Shown: positions 5,870 through 36,093 of the stretch, piece by piece | Layout: each line of letters starts with the position of its first letter | Position numbering within the stretch: position 1 is the first letter of the stretch | DNA from: a virus | Virus record (IMG/VR): IMGVR_UViG_3300006947_002595 | Coordinates: 1 to 40,035 of that record | Length of the DNA: 40,035 bases | Strand: one strand, 5' to 3' | Translations under genes and position numbers: made by a program | The notes under the pieces: generated by a model | Seen by the model: the letters and a program-made list of their open reading frames with translations, nothing else | Database searches by the model: none | Told to the model about the DNA's origin: nothing

Positions 5870-6283
5870 ATGGCTTATTCAGACAAGGTGATGGACCATT
5901 ATGAGAACCCACGAAACGTAGGTAAATTTAATGCTGAAGAAAGTAACATTGGTACAGGTATGGTAGGAGCTCCAGCGTGTGGAGACGTAATGCGTTTACA
6001 AATCAAAGTAGATGAAAATGGTATTATTGAAGATGCTAAATTCAAAACTTATGGTTGCGGTAGTGCTATTGCTAGTAGTAGTTTATTAACTACAATGGTA
6101 AAAGGTATGACGTTAGATAAAGCAGGCTCAATAAAGAACATGGATATTGCACATGAACTTGCATTACCTCCAGTTAAGATACATTGCAGTGTACTAGCCG
6201 AAGATGCAATTAAATCTGCTATTGCAGATTATCAAGGCAAGAACCCAGTACCTGAGGGTGCTAGCTACTACGAAATTAAGTAG
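5870..6283 (+). CDS. iscU: IscU-type iron-sulfur cluster scaffold
   Basis: A 137-residue protein matching IscU across its length. The cluster ligands occur at the E. coli positions: C37 and D39 in GAPACGDV, C63 in YGCGSAIASSS, and H105-C106 in KIHCSVLAEDAI. The LPPVK motif (99-103), recognised by the HscA chaperone, is intact. IscU assembles [2Fe-2S] and [4Fe-4S] clusters from sulfur supplied by IscS and passes them to acceptors. No IscS, HscA or IscA gene is visible, so the phage protein would have to use host partners. A CGFS glutaredoxin, a usual cluster carrier, lies 1 kb downstream. A TAGGAG ribosome site precedes the ATG. Confidence 0.95.
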   Translation: MAYSDKVMDHYENPRNVGKFNAEESNIGTGMVGAPACGDVMRLQIKVDENGIIEDAKFKTYGCGSAIASSSLLTTMVKGMTLDKAGSIKNMDIAHELALPPVKIHCSVLAEDAIKSAIADYQGKNPVPEGASYYEIK

Positions 6284-19647: not shown

Positions 19648-19980
19648 ATGCAAAATGAAATAAACACATTGTTAGCAAGTATCAAGCAAGATTATATTAG
19701 ATGGACTACCCAAGATGGTAAGAAAGAGCTTACAGGCTATAACAAAGACCAAGTAGACAATTGGGATTCGTTGATGGAAGTTAAAGAAGGTAAAAAGTAT
19801 ATTAAGATTATCAGAGACAGGGGTGTTTGGGGTTTTGTTGTTAAAGAAGACGGTCCTAAATTTAAAAAAGGTGATATACTAAAAGCCGCAGGTTATAATG
19901 CACCAGCTACTAACGCCGCAAGGGGTAACATTTTTGAAGAATTTAGTGTTGCTTGGACCGGTCCACATTACTTAAAATAA
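19648..19980 (+). CDS. Hypothetical protein, 110 aa
   Basis: A 110-residue mixed alpha/beta protein (EINTLLASIKQDYIRWTT, KYIKIIRDRGVWGFVVKED, FKKGDILKAAGYNAPATNAARGNIF). The KKGDILKAAGYNAPA stretch is like part of small phage proteins of unknown role. It is first after a dyad promoter and lies 11 bases upstream of a peptidyl-tRNA hydrolase gene. No function assigned. Confidence 0.73.
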   Translation: MQNEINTLLASIKQDYIRWTTQDGKKELTGYNKDQVDNWDSLMEVKEGKKYIKIIRDRGVWGFVVKEDGPKFKKGDILKAAGYNAPATNAARGNIFEEFSVAWTGPHYLK

Positions 19981-19991
19981 GGGAATATAAA

Positions 19992-20396
19992 TTGACACCA
20001 GTACTTTACATACTAATGAGAAATGACCTTGCTTCGCTTAATGCGGGCAAGGCGATGGCACAGGCTAGCCATGCTAGTAATGCATTTCTCTTCAACTTAG
20101 TAAATGATCCATCAAAAGCTGACTATAAGGATTTAGTTGAAGAATGGATATCCACTACAACACAAGGCTTTGGCACTGTTTTTGTTCTAGCAGTTAATGA
20201 AGAACAATTAAATAAGGCTATTGATCTTGCAGATGCAGATGGATTTGCAACTAACATAATTACTGATCCAACTTACCCAATCAAAGACGGTGACGTTACG
20301 CACCATTTACCACTAGACACTTGTGGATATATATTTGGTGATCATGAAGATCCAATGTTGAGATTGATAACACAGGATTTAGAATTATATCCATAA
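19992..20396 (+). CDS. Pth2-type peptidyl-tRNA hydrolase
   Basis: About 134 residues. The N-terminal block LYILMRNDLASLNAGKAMAQ, then ASHAS, reproduces the Pth2 signature (R-x-D-L, G-K, A-Q, H-A), and the VNEEQLNKAIDLADADGFATNIITD segment matches the second family block. Pth2 frees tRNAs from peptidyl-tRNAs dropped by stalled ribosomes; it is usual in archaea and eukaryotes, while most bacteria rely on an unrelated Pth. In this phage it complements tmRNA-based rescue. I choose the TTG at 19992, behind AAGGGA, instead of the ATG at 19953 inside the previous gene. It ends just before another promoter. Confidence 0.85.
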   Translation: MTPVLYILMRNDLASLNAGKAMAQASHASNAFLFNLVNDPSKADYKDLVEEWISTTTQGFGTVFVLAVNEEQLNKAIDLADADGFATNIITDPTYPIKDGDVTHHLPLDTCGYIFGDHEDPMLRLITQDLELYP

Positions 20397-20463: not shown

Positions 20464-20973
20464 ATGACACTCATTCAAAAAGCAGATCTTTTCGCAAGTG
20501 TAGCACATGCCGCAATTGGACAGAAACGCAAGTACAGCAATGATGACTATATCGTTCATCCTCGTAGAGTAGCAAAAACTGTTGAAACTGTTGGCGGCTC
20601 AGATGAGATGATTGCCGCGGCTTTGCTACATGATGTTATTGAAGATACAGCAATTACAGGTCCAATGATAATGTCAGCATTTGGAGCGACTGTATTTAAA
20701 CTTGTATTGGAGTTAACTGACACTAGTAAGCCAGAAGATGGAAATCGTGCAGTACGCAAAGGAATTGACGCCACACGCTTAGGGTTTGCAAGCAAAGATG
20801 CACAGATAATTAAACTTGCAGACTTAATTGATAACAGTAATGATATTGAAGCAAATGATCCAAGTTTCTCAAAAGTGTTTCTTAAAGAAAAAGCACACTT
20901 ACTTGATGTAATGGATAAGGTTCATGATCATGAGTTATATGTAACCGCACGTAAAAACTTAGGAGGTAAATAG
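20464..20973 (+). CDS. HD-domain protein, MESH1/SpoT-like alarmone hydrolase
   Basis: A 169-residue single-domain HD phosphohydrolase of the RelA/SpoT hydrolase group: an AHAAIGQKRKYSNDDYIVHPRRV start, the HD-E-D block ALLHDVIEDT (H56, D57, E60, D61), then KLADLIDNSNDI. There is no synthetase, TGS or ACT domain, so it has the size of a small alarmone hydrolase (SAH/MESH1). Such enzymes remove the 3' pyrophosphate of (p)ppGpp and may act on NADPH or related nucleotides. The likely effect is to relieve the stringent response in a starved marine host (inference). It is the first gene of an operon that leads into clpP. Confidence 0.88.
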   Translation: MTLIQKADLFASVAHAAIGQKRKYSNDDYIVHPRRVAKTVETVGGSDEMIAAALLHDVIEDTAITGPMIMSAFGATVFKLVLELTDTSKPEDGNRAVRKGIDATRLGFASKDAQIIKLADLIDNSNDIEANDPSFSKVFLKEKAHLLDVMDKVHDHELYVTARKNLGGK

Positions 20974-22009: not shown

Positions 22010-22597
22010 ATGATAATACCAACAGTAATTGAATCAACAGGACGCGGCGAACGTGCATACGATATTTACAGTCGTTTGCTTAAAGATCGAATTGTAATGC
22101 TTAATGGCGAAGTTAACGACCATACTGCAAATTTAGTAGTTGCACAGATGTTATTTTTAGAATCACAAAATAGTAGTGAAGATATTAATTTCTATATTAA
22201 TAGCCCAGGTGGTGCAGTTACAGCAGGCCTAGGAATTTACGATACTATGCAGTTTATTAAATCTCCAGTAAGTACAATTGTTATGGGCCAAGCATGTAGC
22301 ATGGGTTCGTTCCTTGCTAACGCAGGCGAGCCAGGTAAGCGTTTAGTATTACCTAACAGTCGTACAATGATTCATCAGCCAAGCGGTGGTGCAGGTGGAC
22401 AAGCAACTGATATGCAGATTCAAGTAAATGAGATTATTAAGATAAAAGAAAGTCTTACACGCATTTATGAGAAGCATAATAGTAAGGGCAAAACATACGA
22501 AGTACTTGCAGAAGCTATGGAGCGTGATAACTTTATGTCCGCACAAGAAGCTGTAGACTTTGGTTTGGCCGATAAAGTTATAGAACGTAAAGTTTAA
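22010..22597 (+). CDS. clpP: ClpP protease subunit
   Basis: A 195-residue serine protease subunit with S97 (GQACSMGS) and H122 ([11 protein letters not shown]) at the E. coli positions and the catalytic Asp in MERDNF (D173). The oligomerisation block [16 protein letters not shown] and the N-terminal axial-loop region are present, and there is no long propeptide. ClpP forms a tetradecameric chamber that degrades proteins fed by ClpX or ClpA. ClpP-like proteases occur in phages as prohead proteases, but here a real ClpX with an IGF loop and ClpS are encoded nearby, which points to regulated proteolysis. No head genes are adjacent. A small kinase-like gene follows. Confidence 0.96.
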
Positions 22598-25421: not shown

Positions 25422-25860
25422 TAACGATAGTTACACAGTAACACCCCCAGATTTAATGATGACGGAACATGGGATTGGAATTCTAATCTCCTCAACTAAT
25501 CACGAACTAGTAGATGACATTAAAGCAGTATTTGAACAATACATTGCTACAAGTGTTGTGTTTATGGTTCAAAATAATAAAACAAATGGAGGAACATTAC
25601 CTTGGATGTGGAATGTTTCTAAAACATGTGACTTCATGATAATTGATGTTGACACGTGTGCATGGGAAGATATTATGGCAGCACTTTTGAAATCAAAAGA
25701 AGAACCAAATACCGTCCTATTTTATAGTGATAAGTACAAGAGAAGGGAGACAGTTAAATTGATTAATGCAACAGGAACAAACTTAGTGGTTAGGTCAATA
25801 AAAGATATAACAGCCTATATCCAAGTACAAATGAGCACAGAGTATCTAAATGAAATCTAG
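25411..25860 (+). CDS. Hypothetical protein, 149 aa
   Basis: A compact alpha/beta protein (GIGILISSTNHELVDDIKAVFEQYI, CDFMIIDVDTCAWEDIMAALL, TVLFYSDKYKRRETVKLINAT) with a response-regulator-like or Rossmann-type alternation of strands and helices, but without clear catalytic residues. It overlaps the genes on both sides by 11 bases, so it is translationally coupled to the membrane protein and to clpX. Unknown function; a role as a ClpX adaptor is possible only by position. Confidence 0.72.
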   Translation: MKIDNDSYTVTPPDLMMTEHGIGILISSTNHELVDDIKAVFEQYIATSVVFMVQNNKTNGGTLPWMWNVSKTCDFMIIDVDTCAWEDIMAALLKSKEEPNTVLFYSDKYKRRETVKLINATGTNLVVRSIKDITAYIQVQMSTEYLNEI

Positions 25861-27076
25861 TTCTTCGTTAGTTCAGTGCAATTTTTGTAGTAAAGATACA
25901 ACACAGGTAAAGAAGCTACTAGCAGGTGAAAACCATACGCATATATGTAGTGATTGTGTTGAGCTTTGTTATGGCATAATCAAGAACGAAACTGTTAAGA
26001 TAGAAAACGCTATTCAAAAGAAAACTAAAAACGTTATACCCACTCCCAAAGGAATACACAAGCACTTAGACAAGTATGTTATTAGCCAATCACATGCTAA
26101 GAAAACATTAAGTGTTGCAATGTATAATCATTATAAAAGAATTAGTAGTAAAACAAAATCAAGGTTACAAAAAAGCAACGTGCTTATTGCAGGTCCTACT
26201 GGAACTGGCAAAACATTAATGGCACAAACACTAGCTAGGTTTTTAGATGTTCCATTTGTAATTACAGATGCTACAGTTATCACAGAAAGCGGATATGCAG
26301 GTGATGACGCAGAAGTATTAATACATAAATTATTTGCCGCAGCAGATTACGATATTGACAGATGCCAACGTGGTATTATATATGTAGATGAAATTGATAA
26401 GAAAGCCAAGCGAAATGACTATGTTAGCTTGAGTAGAGACGTTTCTGGAGAAGGAGTCCAACAGAGCCTTTTAAAGCTCATGGAAGGTACTATAGTAGCG
26501 GTTCCGAACAAACCGACACATAACCCGGAGAAGGTCGAAATCGACACCACTAACATACTATTTGTAGTAGGTGGAGCCTTCGTTGGCCTACAAGATGTTG
26601 TGCTTGAACGACTCGGTAAAGCAAAGATAGGTTTTAACGACTCTAACGATGCCGCAATTAAAGACTGGCAAAGGCACTTACAAACACGTGACTTAGTAAA
26701 ATATGGATTAATACCTGAGTTTATAGGTAGACTTCCTAGTGTTAATGTGTTAAACTTATTAAGTAAGCAAGATTTAGTAGAAATATTGACAGAACCAACA
26801 GATAGTATTATTGATCAAATAAAAGATTTATTTTTACTTGACAAAATACAAATAGAGTTTACAATAAGTGCATTAGAAGAAGTTGCAACTGTTGCTATAA
26901 ACGAAGAAATGGGTGCTAGAGGTTTACGTAAGATTTTAGACGAAGCACTTTTAGACATCCAATATGAGTTACCTGAGATGTATGAACAAGGAGTTAGAAA
27001 AATTATTATTAACGAAAATGTAATACGCAATACCGGAAAACCCATAATTATTAAAGGCACAAACACAGTTGAATAA
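25850..27076 (+). CDS. clpX: ClpX ATPase / unfoldase subunit
   Basis: A 408-residue AAA+ protein aligning with ClpX from end to end. Zinc-binding C10, C13, C33 and C36; Walker A GPTGTGKT (115-122); Walker B IIYVDE (176-181); pore-2 block SRDVSGEGVQQ; ClpP-docking tripeptide IGF (260-262) in its loop; sensor II GARGLRK. Two substrate-contact loops differ from E. coli: pore-1 GYVG is GYAG (148-151), and the RKH loop, which reads the ssrA tag C-terminus, is KPTH (221-224). ClpX unfolds tagged proteins and feeds them to ClpP, whose gene lies 3.3 kb upstream. It overlaps infC by eight bases. Confidence 0.97.
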   Translation: MKSSSSLVQCNFCSKDTTQVKKLLAGENHTHICSDCVELCYGIIKNETVKIENAIQKKTKNVIPTPKGIHKHLDKYVISQSHAKKTLSVAMYNHYKRISSKTKSRLQKSNVLIAGPTGTGKTLMAQTLARFLDVPFVITDATVITESGYAGDDAEVLIHKLFAAADYDIDRCQRGIIYVDEIDKKAKRNDYVSLSRDVSGEGVQQSLLKLMEGTIVAVPNKPTHNPEKVEIDTTNILFVVGGAFVGLQDVVLERLGKAKIGFNDSNDAAIKDWQRHLQTRDLVKYGLIPEFIGRLPSVNVLNLLSKQDLVEILTEPTDSIIDQIKDLFLLDKIQIEFTISALEEVATVAINEEMGARGLRKILDEALLDIQYELPEMYEQGVRKIIINENVIRNTGKPIIIKGTNTVE

Positions 27077-27590
27077 AAGCAATTTTAAAAAGAGAGACAT
27101 CGGTCCTAAAGTAGTAGCAAATAACAGGATTAGGTGCAAGACAGTAAGAGTTTCCTTTCCAGATGGTGATAGTCAAATACTATCGATTGAGGACGCACAG
27201 AGGAGTGCATTAGAACTAGACTTAGATTTAGTGTTGATCACTGAAACAGCAGATCCACCAGTTTGTAAAATAACTGATCTAGCTAAGTTTATATACGCCT
27301 CTAAGCAAAAAGACAAGTTGGCTAAACGAAAGCAACGTGAAAGCGTTGTTGAGACAAAGGAAATACGTTTGGGAATTAACATCGATATAGGTGACATAAC
27401 TACCAAGGCTAAGCAAGCACGTAAATTCTTAGACAAAAACAACAAAGTTACGGTTACCATTATTCTTAAAGGTAGAGAGCGGGGGAAAAGCGATAGAGCT
27501 AAAGAACTGCTAAATACATTTGCTGACACTCTAGGTGTTGAATATGAAAATATAAGCATTCAGAATAATAGAGTGACTGGAAAGATATAA
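27069..27590 (+). CDS. infC: Translation initiation factor IF-3
   Basis: A 173-residue IF-3 with both domains: the N-domain (NNRIRCKTVRVSFPDGDSQILSIEDAQRSA, then DPPVCKITDLAKFIY), a Lys-rich linker (QKDKLAKRKQRES), and the C-domain beginning TKEIRLGINIDIGD with KARKFL-type and VTVTIILKGRERG blocks. It lacks the last few residues seen in many host IF-3s. IF-3 keeps ribosomal subunits apart and rejects wrong starts. No ATG is available near the start: translation most likely begins at the TTG inside the clpX stop region. Host infC genes also use poor start codons for self-control. The bS21 gene follows after six bases. Confidence 0.95.
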   Translation: MNKSNFKKRDIGPKVVANNRIRCKTVRVSFPDGDSQILSIEDAQRSALELDLDLVLITETADPPVCKITDLAKFIYASKQKDKLAKRKQRESVVETKEIRLGINIDIGDITTKAKQARKFLDKNNKVTVTIILKGRERGKSDRAKELLNTFADTLGVEYENISIQNNRVTGKI

Positions 27591-27596
27591 CAAAAT

Positions 27597-27833
27597 ATGT
27601 CAAAAAATAATCATAAAGATCAACGAGGCGGCGGTGGCCTAACAGTTGAAGTTAGAAACAATAATGTAGAACAAGCACTACGTAAGCTAAAGAAAATGAT
27701 AGCCAAAGACGGTATCATGCAAACAATACGTGACCGTAGTCATTTTGTAAGTAATACTGAGAAACGATTAAAAGCAAATGCCGCGGCAGCTGCCAGACAT
27801 CGTAGACGTATTAAGGAAAACAAGTACGAATAA
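27597..27833 (+). CDS. rpsU: Ribosomal protein bS21
   Basis: A 78-residue basic protein with the bS21 signature VEVRNNNVEQALRKLKKM, the RDRSHFVSNTEKRLK middle part and an Arg/Ala-rich end (AAAARHRRRIKEN). bS21 sits on the small subunit near the mRNA exit and affects initiation and Shine-Dalgarno recognition. Marine phages, including pelagiphages, are known to carry it. With the adjacent infC it makes a two-gene initiation module that could bias host ribosomes towards phage mRNAs. The N-terminal 14 residues (MSKNNHKDQRGGGG) are an unusual glycine-rich extension. Confidence 0.95.
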   Translation: MSKNNHKDQRGGGGLTVEVRNNNVEQALRKLKKMIAKDGIMQTIRDRSHFVSNTEKRLKANAAAAARHRRRIKENKYE

Positions 27834-27948: not shown

Positions 27949-28374
27949 ATGACAAGACTTACAACACTAAACCTACCAGACTTCTATAAAGCCACTATTG
28001 GTTTTGATAGAATGTTCGATGAGATGCAAAATGCATTTAATCCAACAACTACAGGCGGGTATCCACCCTACAATATCGTTAAAGTAAACGAAACAAGCTA
28101 TGCAATTAGTTTAGCAGTAGCTGGTTTTAATAAGAACGATATTAGCGTGGAGCAAGACGGTAACATGCTTACTATCAAAGCTGAAGATACTTCAGAAGAA
28201 GATGTTAAGGAATATCTACACAAGGGTATTGCAACTAGAAACTTTACAAGAGAATTTAGTTTAGCAGATTATGTAGATGTAACTGGAGCGAAACAAAATG
28301 ACGGAATTTTAGAAGTCACTTTGCAACAAAACATTCCAGATAACAAGAAACCACGTAATATTAAAATTGGATAA
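27949..28374 (+). CDS. Small heat-shock protein, Hsp20 family (IbpA-like)
   Basis: A 141-residue chaperone. After an N-terminal arm (DFYKATIGFDRMFDEMQNAF, similar to the IbpA start) comes the alpha-crystallin domain (PPYNIVKVNETSYAISLAVAGF, DISVEQDGNMLTIKAED, IATRNFTREFSLADYVDVTGAKQNDGILEVTL) and a short tail. The usual I-x-I tail motif appears as NIKIG. Hsp20 proteins hold unfolded proteins for refolding or degradation. T4-like cyanophages also encode Hsp20. In this window it lies between bS21 and ClpS, within the protein quality-control group. Confidence 0.95.
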   Translation: MTRLTTLNLPDFYKATIGFDRMFDEMQNAFNPTTTGGYPPYNIVKVNETSYAISLAVAGFNKNDISVEQDGNMLTIKAEDTSEEDVKEYLHKGIATRNFTREFSLADYVDVTGAKQNDGILEVTLQQNIPDNKKPRNIKIG

Positions 28375-28385
28375 CAGGTAAAACA

Positions 28386-28688
28386 ATGGCTCAAGCATCA
28401 CACGAAGACATAGCAGAAATGACAAGGTTAAAATCACCACCTAAATTTAACGTGATTCTAATGAATGATGAAGCTACGCCTCAAGAGTTCGTAGTTAATG
28501 TTTTAAGATCAATTTTTAATAGAACATCAGACGAAGCAGAGGCAGTGATGCTTGAAGTCCATAACAAGGGCAGAGGCATAGCTGGTACATACAGTTACGA
28601 AGTTGCTGAACAAAAATGCGTTGAAACGATTACTGACGCAAGGCGTAATAGCTACCCACTAGACGTCACATTAGAAAAAACAGAATAA
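28386..28688 (+). CDS. clpS: ClpS, N-end rule adaptor
   Basis: A 100-residue adaptor with all ClpS blocks: KFNVILMNDEATPQEFVVNVL, IFNRTSDEAEAVMLEVHNKGRGIAG and TYSYEVAEQKCVETI. The residues that line the N-degron pocket (ND in MNDE, M and H in VMLEVH) are present. ClpS normally delivers proteins with destabilising N-terminal residues to ClpA for ClpP. No ClpA gene is visible, so it would act with host ClpA or with the phage enzyme in a new way. It starts 11 bases after hsp20. Confidence 0.95.
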   Translation: MAQASHEDIAEMTRLKSPPKFNVILMNDEATPQEFVVNVLRSIFNRTSDEAEAVMLEVHNKGRGIAGTYSYEVAEQKCVETITDARRNSYPLDVTLEKTE

Positions 28689-29682: not shown

Positions 29683-30011
29683 AATATATAATTGATATAG
29701 ATGGTACTATTTGTAAAGAAGTTTTTCTTGCAGATGGTAAGAAAGACTATGCTAACCATATTCCATATATGGATCGTATTGCAAAAGTAAACAAACTACA
29801 TGAAGCAGGTCATACTATCAAGTACATGACTGCACGTGGAATCACTAGTGGAATAGATTATTTTAAACTAACAAATAATCAGCTAGTAGAATGGGGTGCA
29901 AAGTTTGATGAACTTGATGTAGGTAACAAACCCCATTACGATATATGGATTGATGACAAAGCATTTTGGAGTGAGAACTTCTTTAGAGAAACAGGTGAAA
30001 CATATGAGTAA
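29679..30011 (+). CDS. HAD-family phosphatase
   Basis: A 110-residue HAD phosphatase with motif I DIDGTI (D4, D6), a motif II region YMTARG (Thr), and motif III/IV near YDIWIDDKAF. It lacks a cap domain, as is typical of small capsule/phosphonate-type HAD proteins. Coupled to the cytidylyltransferase by an ATGA overlap and to the aldolase gene by an eight-base overlap. It probably dephosphorylates an intermediate of the same pathway. Confidence 0.87.
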   Translation: MKYIIDIDGTICKEVFLADGKKDYANHIPYMDRIAKVNKLHEAGHTIKYMTARGITSGIDYFKLTNNQLVEWGAKFDELDVGNKPHYDIWIDDKAFWSENFFRETGETYE

Positions 30012-30798
30012 ATTTATAGCCGCAATGGACCACAGTGGTGGAAGCACAGGCGGAGTACTAGAACGTTACGAACAAGATTATACAGAAGATAATAAAATGG
30101 ACCTTGTACATCAAATGCGTATGCGTATGGTTAATAGTCCAGACTTTAACAGTAATAATATTTGGGCCTCAATACTTTATAAAGATTCAGTTGAACGAGG
30201 TTTATCTATGATCCTACGTGCAAAAGGCATTGAACCATATCTTAAAATTGATAGTGGGTGTGAAGAAGATGGAACACTCAAACACTTTGATTTAGAAGAG
30301 ATGTGTAAGTATGCACTTGAAATGCAATGTAGTGGTACTAAGATGCGTAGCATTATTAAAAGCGAAGAGATGATTGATGCAGTACTTAAACAACAATTTG
30401 GTATGGCTGCATATATTAGTAACAAAGGCCTTATGCCAATTGTAGAACCAGAAATTCCAATTGATCATCCAATGAAGCGTTCGTTAGAGATTATGCTTTT
30501 TGAACAGTTAAACAATCATCTACAAACATTAGATGGTAAGTGTATTCTAAAACTTACACTACCTGATATTAAAGAACTCTATAAACCATTGACAGCACAT
30601 GAAAGTTGTAGTAGTATTGTAGCATTAAGTGGTGGATACACTACAGAAGAAGCATGCAAAAGACTAGCAAATAATCCTTCAATGGGTGCTAGCTTTAGTA
30701 GAGCATTAAGCGAGGGATTGTTCTATGGACAGACTGAGCCGGTATTTGACACACGAATAAGTGCAAATATTGATAACATTAAAAGGAGTTGTGAATGA
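30004..30798 (+). CDS. Class I fructose-bisphosphate aldolase
   Basis: A 264-residue protein matching bacterial class I FBP aldolases of the staphylococcal type: [17 protein letters not shown] at the start, [17 protein letters not shown], the Schiff-base lysine region [24 protein letters not shown] and [11 protein letters not shown]. It cleaves or forms fructose-1,6-bisphosphate by a Schiff base without metal. Aldolase in a phage could divert carbon to triose phosphates or feed the neighbouring nucleotidyltransferase pathway (inference). The ATG at 30004 is chosen because the conserved sequence begins there; an ATG at 29950 lies within the HAD gene. It overlaps guaC by ATGA. Confidence 0.93.
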
Positions 30799-31943
30799 GA
30801 ATCGAAACAGAACACAAGCTAGATTATAGCGATGTATTAATTAGACCAAAGCGTAGTACGTTAGGGTCGAGAAAAGACGTTGATTTACAACGTGGATTTA
30901 CATTTAGAAACTATTTGGGAGCAAGGCCTTTAAATGAACCAGAAGACTACAGCGGTATTCCTATTATGGCTTCTAACATGGATGGAGTTGGTACATTTGA
31001 AATGGCAGACACACTTGCTAAACAAAGTATCTTCACTTGCTTAGTTAAAACATACAGCGTAGAAGAACTTGTTGAATTCTTCAATACGGATAATGAGTCT
31101 CGCACAGATAATGTTGCTATTAGTATTGGCATCATGGAAAAGGATCAACAGAAATTTAGTGACGTATATGAACAAGTTGGTGCCCGTATCAAGTATGTTT
31201 GTATTGATGTAGCAAATGGATATAGTGAACGATTTAGTAACTTTGTTAGAAAGTTTAGAAAACAATATCCATACGTAGTAATTATTGCTGGTAATGTAGT
31301 AACAGGCGAAATGACAGAGGAGTTAATTCTTAATGGAGCAGACATTGTTAAAGTTGGAATCGGACCAGGTTCCGTGTGTACAACAAGAATCCAAACAGGT
31401 GTCGGATACCCACAGCTATCTGCAGTTATTGAATGTGCAGATGCGGCACATGGACTTGGTGGACATATTATCGCTGATGGGGGTTGCAATTGTCCTGGTG
31501 ACGTGGCTAAGGCATTCGCTGGCGGTGCAGATTTTGTAATGCTTGGCGGAATGCTAGCAGGACATGATGAAGGCGGTGGAAAAACTATTCTTAAACATTA
31601 TGAGACAAATGAACTTGTATATGAAATAGGTAGTCACTTGGATAAGCATACAAAGAAAATTGAAACAAAAGAGTTTGTAGCATTCTACGGAATGAGTTCA
31701 AATGCGGCAAACACAAAGCACTTTGGAGGATTGAAAGATTATAGATCAAGCGAAGGACGTGAAGTACTTGTTCCTTATCGTGGAACAGTAGAAAATACTA
31801 TACAAAATATATTAGGCGGAATACGTAGTACATGCACATACGCAGGTGCAAACCGTCTTAAATACCTAAATAAATGCACTACATTTATTATGGCTAACAA
31901 ACAGTACAACGCAGTATATGAAGCGACTACAACGAAGATTTAG
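30795..31943 (+). CDS. guaC: GMP reductase
   Basis: A 382-residue member of the IMPDH/GMPR family. The start [19 protein letters not shown] is GuaC-like, and the catalytic loop [20 protein letters not shown] contains the active-site Cys. [35 protein letters not shown] forms the phosphate-binding part. No CBS domain pair is present, which supports GMP reductase over IMP dehydrogenase. It deaminates GMP to IMP with NADPH, letting guanine from degraded host RNA flow to adenine nucleotides, useful for an AT-rich phage genome. It closes the metabolic operon. Confidence 0.93.
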
Positions 31944-35050: not shown

Positions 35051-35097
35051 CGTAATTGAAATTAACATTTGTGTTAATTAAATATTTGATAAATAGG

Positions 35098-35126
35098 TTG
35101 ACAGAAGACACTACATAGTGTATAAA
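35098..35126 (+). promoter_or_regulatory. Sigma70-type promoter of the tmRNA gene
   Basis: TTGACA, a 17-base spacer (GAAGACACTACATAGTG) and TATAAA. A start site near 35133 is expected. It lacks the AAGA-TCTT dyad. A GATAAATA box (35088-35095) directly precedes the -35 element, so early and late transcription may both occur. Confidence 0.75.
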
Positions 35127-35132
35127 TATAAC

Positions 35133-35465
35133 TTGTAACGTTGAAACTTAATTGAACGCTAAACTGGACCTGGGGGCAGTACCCAGCAGCTCCACCATAA
35201 ACACACCGCCGTGTGGACCGAAAGACGGATTCTATAGGCGTTTCGGCATATGTCGCAGTAGAATATTACGGTGTGTTTTTGATGGGGCTGATATAGGATC
35301 GACAGGTAGACTAGATAAGTGGAGTTATCCCGATGTAAGCTGGGTTAACGCGAACAAACTTTATAATTGCAAACGCAAATTATGAGCCAGAAATGGCAAT
35401 AGCAGCCTAAATTAGGTATGTAGGGGTTTTGGTAACTTGGACCTGGCAACAGAATCAAGTTGCAA
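35133..35465 (+). ncRNA. ssrA: tmRNA, circularly permuted two-piece type
   Basis: The acceptor piece comes first: T-arm CTGGG-GGCAGTA-CCCAG (35170-35186), then CAGCTCC and encoded ACCA (35187-35197). An intervening hairpin (AAACACACCG/CGGTGTGTTT) leads to the second piece, which starts GGGGCTG (35284-35290) and pairs all seven bases with CAGCTCC, then GATATAGGATCGACAGG as in other tmRNAs. The resume frame GCA...TAA (35370-35411) encodes ANANYEPEMAIAA. The 3' end is not exact; the AACTTG/CAAGTT hairpin ends near 35461. Permuted ssrA genes are typical of alphaproteobacteria. It rescues stalled ribosomes and tags products for ClpXP; clpX and clpP are also in this window. Confidence 0.93.
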
Positions 35466-35508
35466 ACTTCATGGACATAAGTTCATGATTATCTTAAACA
35501 GGAATAAT

Positions 35509-36093
35509 ATGAAAAATTTAATGATGACTGCGGCCGCAATAGCCGTAATTTCTACAGCCGCATTGGCTGAGGATTATGACAATACATCTATTACTATGGC
35601 AGCTGAAGGTGCTACAGTAGGAGTTGAGTTGTCAACAAATGATACAACTAGATCACTGGGCGTATACACAACTAACACTGCACTCGATTATGGTGTGCAA
35701 ATGATTGATAATGGCACTAAGCGTGACTATAATCTTTCAGTTGGTAATACAGTTGAAATGCCTGTTGGATTTGCCGGAACGGCATATGTTAAAGGCGAAG
35801 CTGAGTATAATTGGGGTGACTCATATACTAAAGCAGAAATGCACATTACACCAGCAGTTGGCTTTAAAACAAAGTTAGCTCAAATTGCTCCATTCGTTGA
35901 AGCTGGTTATAGATTGAAATCAATCGAAGGTGATTATACTAATGTAAACCGTGATGCTCCTTATGCAAAACTTGGTACTTCGTATCAGTTAACGCTTAAC
36001 ACAGCATTGAACTTAGACGTAACACAGTCTATGGATAAAAAGTGGAAATCAACAGACCGTGAACTTGGTGCAAAATTAACATTTAAATTCTAA
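35509..36093 (+). CDS. Outer-membrane beta-barrel protein with signal peptide
   Basis: A 194-residue protein. Residues 1-20 (MKNLMMTAAAIAVISTAALA) form a Sec signal peptide with an ALA cleavage site. The mature part is alternating beta strands (TVGVELSTNDTTRSLGVYTTN, MHITPAVGFKTKLAQIAPFVEAGYRL) and ends in Phe (KLTFKF), the BAM recognition signal. The size fits an eight-stranded barrel. An outer-membrane protein made by a phage could block receptors or alter surface properties (inference). The start at 35509 with AGGA is preferred to an upstream frame that would read into the tmRNA. A strong terminator follows. Confidence 0.85.
   Translation: MKNLMMTAAAIAVISTAALAEDYDNTSITMAAEGATVGVELSTNDTTRSLGVYTTNTALDYGVQMIDNGTKRDYNLSVGNTVEMPVGFAGTAYVKGEAEYNWGDSYTKAEMHITPAVGFKTKLAQIAPFVEAGYRLKSIEGDYTNVNRDAPYAKLGTSYQLTLNTALNLDVTQSMDKKWKSTDRELGAKLTFKF

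Follow-up and report, generated by a model that had tools for sequence, protein, structure and literature searches.

A two-piece tmRNA gene with its own tag, promoter and precursor helix in a phage-only lineage

The window analysed here is a 40,035-base linear virus record (IMG/VR record IMGVR_UViG_3300006947_002595). At positions 35133-35464, ARAGORN and Rfam covariance models identify a circularly permuted, alpha-type two-piece transfer-messenger RNA (tmRNA) on this phage record; all of its parts lie on the plus strand. ARAGORN calls a permuted tmRNA (tmRNA*) at 35105-35501. The RF04321 model (tmRNA_permuted) matches 35135-35410 at 105.9 bits (gathering threshold 47, E 7.6e-20), and RF01849 (alpha_tmRNA) matches 35094-35464 at 98.7 bits (gathering threshold 50, E 6.3e-26). 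The competing beta and cyano models reach 41.6 and 14.2 bits, each under its cut-off, and the locus is alpha-type by score. A preliminary description of this DNA, made from the letters alone, had proposed that a phage carries here a permuted tmRNA in two pieces, of the kind seen in alphaproteobacteria, and had named an alpha-tmRNA covariance-model search as the check. That search was run, and its match, together with those of ARAGORN and RF04321, upholds the proposal.

The gene has the permuted order, in which the acceptor segment with its CCA is encoded 5´ of the coding segment. The acceptor piece (35133-35197) comprises a T-arm (CTGGG/CCCAG), the acceptor 3´ strand CAGCTCC and an encoded CCA, and terminates as CAGCTCC-A-CCA at 35197. 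An intervening segment of 86 nt (35198-35283), predicted to be removed by tRNA-processing enzymes, separates it from the coding, mRNA-like piece (35284-35464), which runs from the acceptor 5´ strand GGGGCTG at 35284 to the end of the RF01849 match. Between them the two pieces make all seven acceptor pairs, which confirms the earlier statement that the strands pair over seven bases with the CCA piece upstream of GGGGCTG. The third of these pairs, G3-U70, is the one on which recognition by alanyl-tRNA synthetase depends. When 35133-35324 was folded and compared with 200 shuffled versions, it proved more stable than all 200 (z -3.0).

The tag reading frame (35369-35410, tag codons 35369-35407) encodes ANANYEPEMAIAA with an Ala-Ala end and closes with a TAA stop. 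Its start is set by the alpha_tmRNA model, in which the resume region UUGCaAACG aligns there, and the frame is common to the relatives; the tag read earlier from the letters is thereby borne out, and the ARAGORN tag ANYEPEMAIAA begins two codons late relative to it. The AIAA ending had been held to be distinctive, yet 27 phage and 4 host tags in the set share it. Directly upstream, a sigma-70-type promoter (TTGACA-N17-TATAAA) lies at 35098-35126; transcription from it is predicted to begin where the mature acceptor piece has its 5´ end, or right beside that point.

Phage relatives were gathered in three ways, by ClpX protein, by tmRNA pattern and by tag pattern, and alphaproteobacterial genes by tag pattern and a class sample. 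Acceptor pairs were counted only in phage sets that had not been fetched by an acceptor-stem pattern, which left 81 distinct sequences. All seven pairs are present in 79 of these 81, and pairs 5 and 6 carry compensatory changes between pieces that lie up to 266 nt apart. The T-stem of the same sequences also covaries, with several pair types, and G3-U70 occurs in every one (81/81). Because the acceptor pairs and the T-stem covary and G3-U70 is invariant, the comparison provides strong evidence for a maintained RNA.

The intervening segment is closed by a helix with its 5´ arm AAACACACCG at 35199-35208 and its 3´ arm CGGTGTGTTT at 35269-35278; beyond the latter come TTGAT and the GGGG with which the coding piece opens. 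The perfect 10-bp inverted repeat that had been described between these arms is real and covaries across phages. Together with the acceptor strands it makes two 22-nt arms with 86% complementarity. Nine pairs at a fixed register, flanked by the CCA and by the TGAT-GGGG junction, were compared among 59 distinct phage spacers: 97.9% of cells show a standard pair, and a single position may use as many as five pair types; a slid register pairs in at most 63%, and arms mixed across genomes in 78%. At the closing-helix positions, alphaproteobacterial spacers of at least 30 nt are 58% paired. Perfect arms of at least 8 bp occur in 54% of phage spacers, compared with 0.6% of shuffles and 12.5% of host spacers, and the median spacer length is 54 nt in phages against 29 nt in the Alphaproteobacteria class sample. 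The closing helix would thus form a precursor hairpin that joins the acceptor strands until host tRNA-processing enzymes release the spacer. One phage pre-tmRNA (L144, 1590-1730) has a spacer with a partial tandem duplication that includes a second GGGGATGAACAGGATCGACTCCACCA block.

The promoter is conserved in position as well. The pattern TTGA[CA]N, a gap of 16-19 and TATAA[AT] precedes 64 of 79 distinct phage tmRNA genes at an almost constant distance, where shuffles predict 0.28; of 146 alphaproteobacterial tmRNA genes, 2 have it at that place.

The phage tags are constrained at nearly every residue while their codons vary silently, and almost every phage copy keeps the intact frame with its Ala-Ala end. 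In a genome scan of 84,980 bacterial and archaeal species with the pattern AN-x-N-x-x-P-[E/A]-M-A, tags of the PEMA[L/I/M]AA class were found in no genuine bacterial contig. The bacterial matches were PAMA tags in Rhodobacterales and in a few alphaproteobacterial or unassigned metagenome-assembled genomes (MAGs). The same pattern recovered at least 120 stretches from viral contigs, mostly PEMA[L/I/M]AA; loci fetched in this way are biased towards this tag, and their counts do not give its frequency among phages generally. All 85 phage copies with a tag of this length begin with GCA, the first codon that the pattern itself prescribes. PEMA tags in two bacterial MAGs, L208 (PBPT01000016.1, Neomarinimicrobiota) and L218 (PALK01000009.1, Rickettsiales), were rejected as bacterial: their flanking open reading frames match viral contigs (up to 100% for L218), so both are most likely misbinned phage DNA. 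The PEMA tag offers a simple marker for such phages and for misbinned phage contigs in bacterial genomes. The PAMA[L/V]AA tmRNAs of Rhodobacterales have a similar tag, ANDNRAPAMALAA, and some phages carry ANDNRAPAMAIAA; in contrast to the phage genes, they are placed in the tree with other alphaproteobacteria.

The phage tmRNAs branch apart from 74 alphaproteobacterial ones, also without the tag codons. In a FastTree analysis of 191 sequences, one branch separates 111 phage tmRNAs from the bacterial genes, which are joined on their side by a few divergent phage ones. With tag codons left out, an IQ-TREE analysis of 132 sequences united 57 of the 58 phage rows beneath a single branch (SH-aLRT 95). 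The label changes between phage and host twice on this tree, compared with 43 times in shuffles, and the data do not reject a single core clade. This result is limited by long branches and a quick tree search. The window tmRNA does not group among bacterial RF01849 members, as a recent host origin would imply, and sits in the phage-only branch. Its 98.7 bits lie far below the 143-313 bits that full-length alphaproteobacterial genes score with RF01849 among the matches listed, one partial match scoring 96.5.

This branch spans unlike phages. When part of the genes of Methylophilales phage Melnitz, whose tmRNA falls in the same phage branch, were compared with a 205-kb relative of the window phage, few and distant protein matches were found, and that relative encodes a terminase, a tail sheath and a DNA polymerase of its own. 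Melnitz, which is the branch's cultured phage and grows on H5P1, infects an OM43 methylophile, which is not an alphaproteobacterium (PMC9004378), and the permuted form is also known from Betaproteobacteria and Cyanobacteria (PMC9004378, PMC11915505). The Melnitz paper took its tmRNA as a sign of acquisition from Alphaproteobacteria and of a host transition (PMC9004378); contrary to that reading, the shared branch suggests that such tmRNA genes circulate among phages. The preliminary description had likewise held that the gene probably came from an alphaproteobacterial host and marks the host range. Neither the origin, in any recent sense, nor the host-range inference is supported, given the phage-only branch, the lower score, a tag class without genuine bacterial contigs, the host of Melnitz and the wider occurrence of the permuted form. 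The window tmRNA is a real, maintained phage gene. Because of its phage-only branch, private tag class, fixed promoter and covarying helix, it is an established, long-standing phage gene rather than a recent host loan and a poor pointer to host range.

Upstream of the tmRNA, at a distance of 7-13 kb, the window encodes ClpP, ClpX and ClpS. The cluster, on the plus strand, consists of ClpP (22010-22597; catalytic Ser97 and His122 kept, with the Asp of an RDNF motif), ClpX (25850-27076), translation initiation factor IF3 (27069-27590), ribosomal protein bS21 (27597-27833), the small heat-shock protein Hsp20 (27949-28374) and the adaptor ClpS (28386-28688), an order shared by most of 61 related contigs. 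Of 50 ClpX-bearing fragments, 30 also contain a permuted tmRNA that scores over the cut-off, about 8-11 kb from ClpX in close relatives. No SmpB was found in the window or in 50 related contigs (some of 184-205 kb), with positive controls, all of these contigs being fragments or of unknown completeness. Outside the ClpX set, 45 of 48 tmRNA phage records, many of them fragments, show no ClpX, and those without it include the complete Melnitz genome and contigs of 151 and 183 kb; the tmRNA thus appears to be kept without a phage ClpX.

The window ClpX has a Zn finger, ATPase motifs and an IGF loop. In E. coli ClpX, residues Y153, V154, T199, V202, R228 and H230 contact the ssrA tag, and human ClpX, whose pore-2 and RKH loops are altered, fails to degrade ssrA substrates (PMC7652416). 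Relative to the E. coli residues, the window ClpX carries V154A and T199S and has lost the RKH loop with R228 and H230. These changes are uniform in its clade, where pore-1 reads GYAG, Ser stands in place of Thr199, and a shorter stretch, NKPxHNPEK or similar, takes the place of the RKH loop; the ssrA-reading features (pore-1 GYVG, pore-2 Thr and the RKH loop) are thus lacking. The clade keeps the ATPase and the ClpP-docking IGF loop. Because the tag-contacting loops and residues are altered, the ClpXP of these phages is probably not adapted to ordinary ssrA tags. A more distant phage ClpX group (L054-L058, L060, L061) has bacterial-type loops and another tag where a tmRNA is present. In a second group of ClpX phages (L055, L058, L157, L158), bacterial-type ClpX loops occur with a permuted tmRNA tag of the form ANNNDY(T/S)(S/P)AQ(I/V)(A/M)LAA.

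In the proposed mechanism, host RNA polymerase would transcribe the tmRNA from its own strong sigma-70-type promoter, as the conservation of that sequence suggests, probably early in infection. The precursor would fold as a single long hairpin, its acceptor stem running on past the ACCA/UGAU gap into the covarying closing helix. By analogy with known permuted tmRNAs, host tRNA-processing enzymes would cut at the CCA and before the GGGG, the spacer would be discarded, and the two mature pieces would be held together by base pairing. The G3-U70 pair would allow charging by host alanyl-tRNA synthetase. Since no phage SmpB was found, the tmRNA would partner host SmpB, free ribosomes stalled on broken mRNA and append ANANYEPEMAIAA, whose Ala-Ala end would most likely be read by host ClpXP or ClpAP; host SmpB and host proteases are thus the probable partners. 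The likely benefit would be free ribosomes, obtained through a phage-controlled rescue RNA during host mRNA destruction.

We consider it likely that the locus encodes a functional two-piece tmRNA, which belongs to an old lineage confined to phages and works with host factors in this way. Several points weigh against this reading: the phage sequences are related, so their counts are not independent events; the records are fragments, so the absence of SmpB is no proof, and huge phages with SmpB exist (PMC7162821); and expression with its early timing, processing, charging and the choice of tag-reading protease are all predicted from sequence. A closed phage module, in which the phage tmRNA tags and phage ClpXP (with ClpS) destroys, recycling host proteins or removing specific ones, would account for the conserved Clp cluster upstream, for the permuted tmRNA in many ClpX-bearing fragments, and for an IGF loop beside a tag ending in Ala-Ala. 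Such a complete tag-and-destroy module was dropped as the leading view after SmpB was not found, ClpX was seen in few tmRNA phage contigs elsewhere and the ssrA-reading loops proved altered, in keeping with the failure of human ClpX; it is unlikely because the clade's ClpX lacks the ssrA-reading residues and most other tmRNA phage contigs show no ClpX.

The altered loops pose a clean biochemical question, namely whether phage ClpXP reads phage tags, host tags or neither. They could belong to a private degron channel, in which the lineage's PEMA[L/I/M]AA tag is paired, in this clade, with a ClpX whose recognition loops have been remodelled either to recognise the phage tag or to disregard ssrA tags altogether; we regard this as quite doubtful, and if it were true, phage-tagged and host-tagged proteins would meet different fates in the infected cell. 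That the phage tag is unlike all bacterial tags found would also suit an RNA that interferes, either by competing with host tmRNA for SmpB or ribosomes or by sparing proteins that the host tag condemns, yet a pure decoy needs neither the conserved frame nor the Ala-Ala end, and interference is very improbable. Recent capture of a host alphaproteobacterial ssrA, possibly via transduction and now decaying or neutral, draws on the alpha-type score alongside the lower beta and cyano scores; it is hardly credible in view of the phage-only branch, private tag, covarying helices and conserved promoter.

Phage two-piece tmRNAs are already known, for example that of Melnitz; 53 of 133 unique phage tmRNAs have been classed as two-piece, 50 of these 53 from marine or aquatic phages (PMC9004378). 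Melnitz (MZ577095-8) is likewise a marine myophage with a permuted alpha-type tmRNA and the same kind of promoter directly upstream, its tmRNA being reported just behind an early promoter, but it differs in its tag ANDNYVPVDYALAA, a 142-nt spacer, the lack of ClpX and a reported glutamine riboswitch (PMC9004378). A search near the window tmRNA for a glutamine riboswitch of that kind found none. The alphaproteobacterial two-piece tmRNAs of RF01849 share the permuted order, G3-U70 and a tag with an AN start and an AA end; they differ in their higher scores (among the matches listed), shorter spacers, weak closing helix and lack of TTGACA-TATAAA at the fixed place. Huge phages carry tmRNA with SmpB, IF3 and bS21 (PMC7162821), Hsp20 and Clp proteases occur near bS21 genes (PMC9723584), and Sinorhizobium phage AP-J-162 has tmRNA with ClpX (PMC11242549). 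The huge phages and AP-J-162 thus resemble the window phage in joining tmRNA with IF3, bS21 or Clp proteins on large phages; the huge-phage set differs in including SmpB, and no description of the permuted form, tag class, promoter or closing helix was found in these two papers.

A search of the open-licence literature found no report of a tmRNA lineage confined to phages, of tags of the PEMA class, of covariation in the closing helix, or of a tmRNA accompanied by altered ClpX loops. The phage-only branch, the PEMA[L/I/M]AA class, the fixed promoter and the covarying helix are newly seen here. Phage tmRNAs have so far been taken as picked-up host genes and have served to indicate the host; a lineage confined to phages, with a tag class, promoter and processing helix of its own, marks ribosome rescue as a maintained phage function common to unlike phage groups.

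Other features were noted around these loci. Weak RF04321 matches in three ClpX contigs had raised the prospect of reduced tmRNAs; the one inspected (G029) is a tRNA ending CTCCACCA. A 192-kb ClpX-bearing phage contig with no permuted tmRNA match over the cut-off (L153) has tandem, near-identical tRNA-Ala (TGC) genes at 848-1045. In the window, a phage outer-membrane-type beta barrel (35509-36093, PF24653) adjoins the 3´ side of the tmRNA and has the same place in several relatives. A PTH2-type peptidyl-tRNA hydrolase (19953-20396, PF01981) represents a further translation-rescue function, and an HD_4 domain protein (20464-20973; PF13328, phrog_990) resembles a (p)ppGpp hydrolase. At 29995-31943, a gene resembling class I fructose-bisphosphate aldolase precedes one that resembles IMP dehydrogenase/GMP reductase, and a NifU-like iron-sulfur scaffold (phrog_8429) is encoded at 5870-6283.
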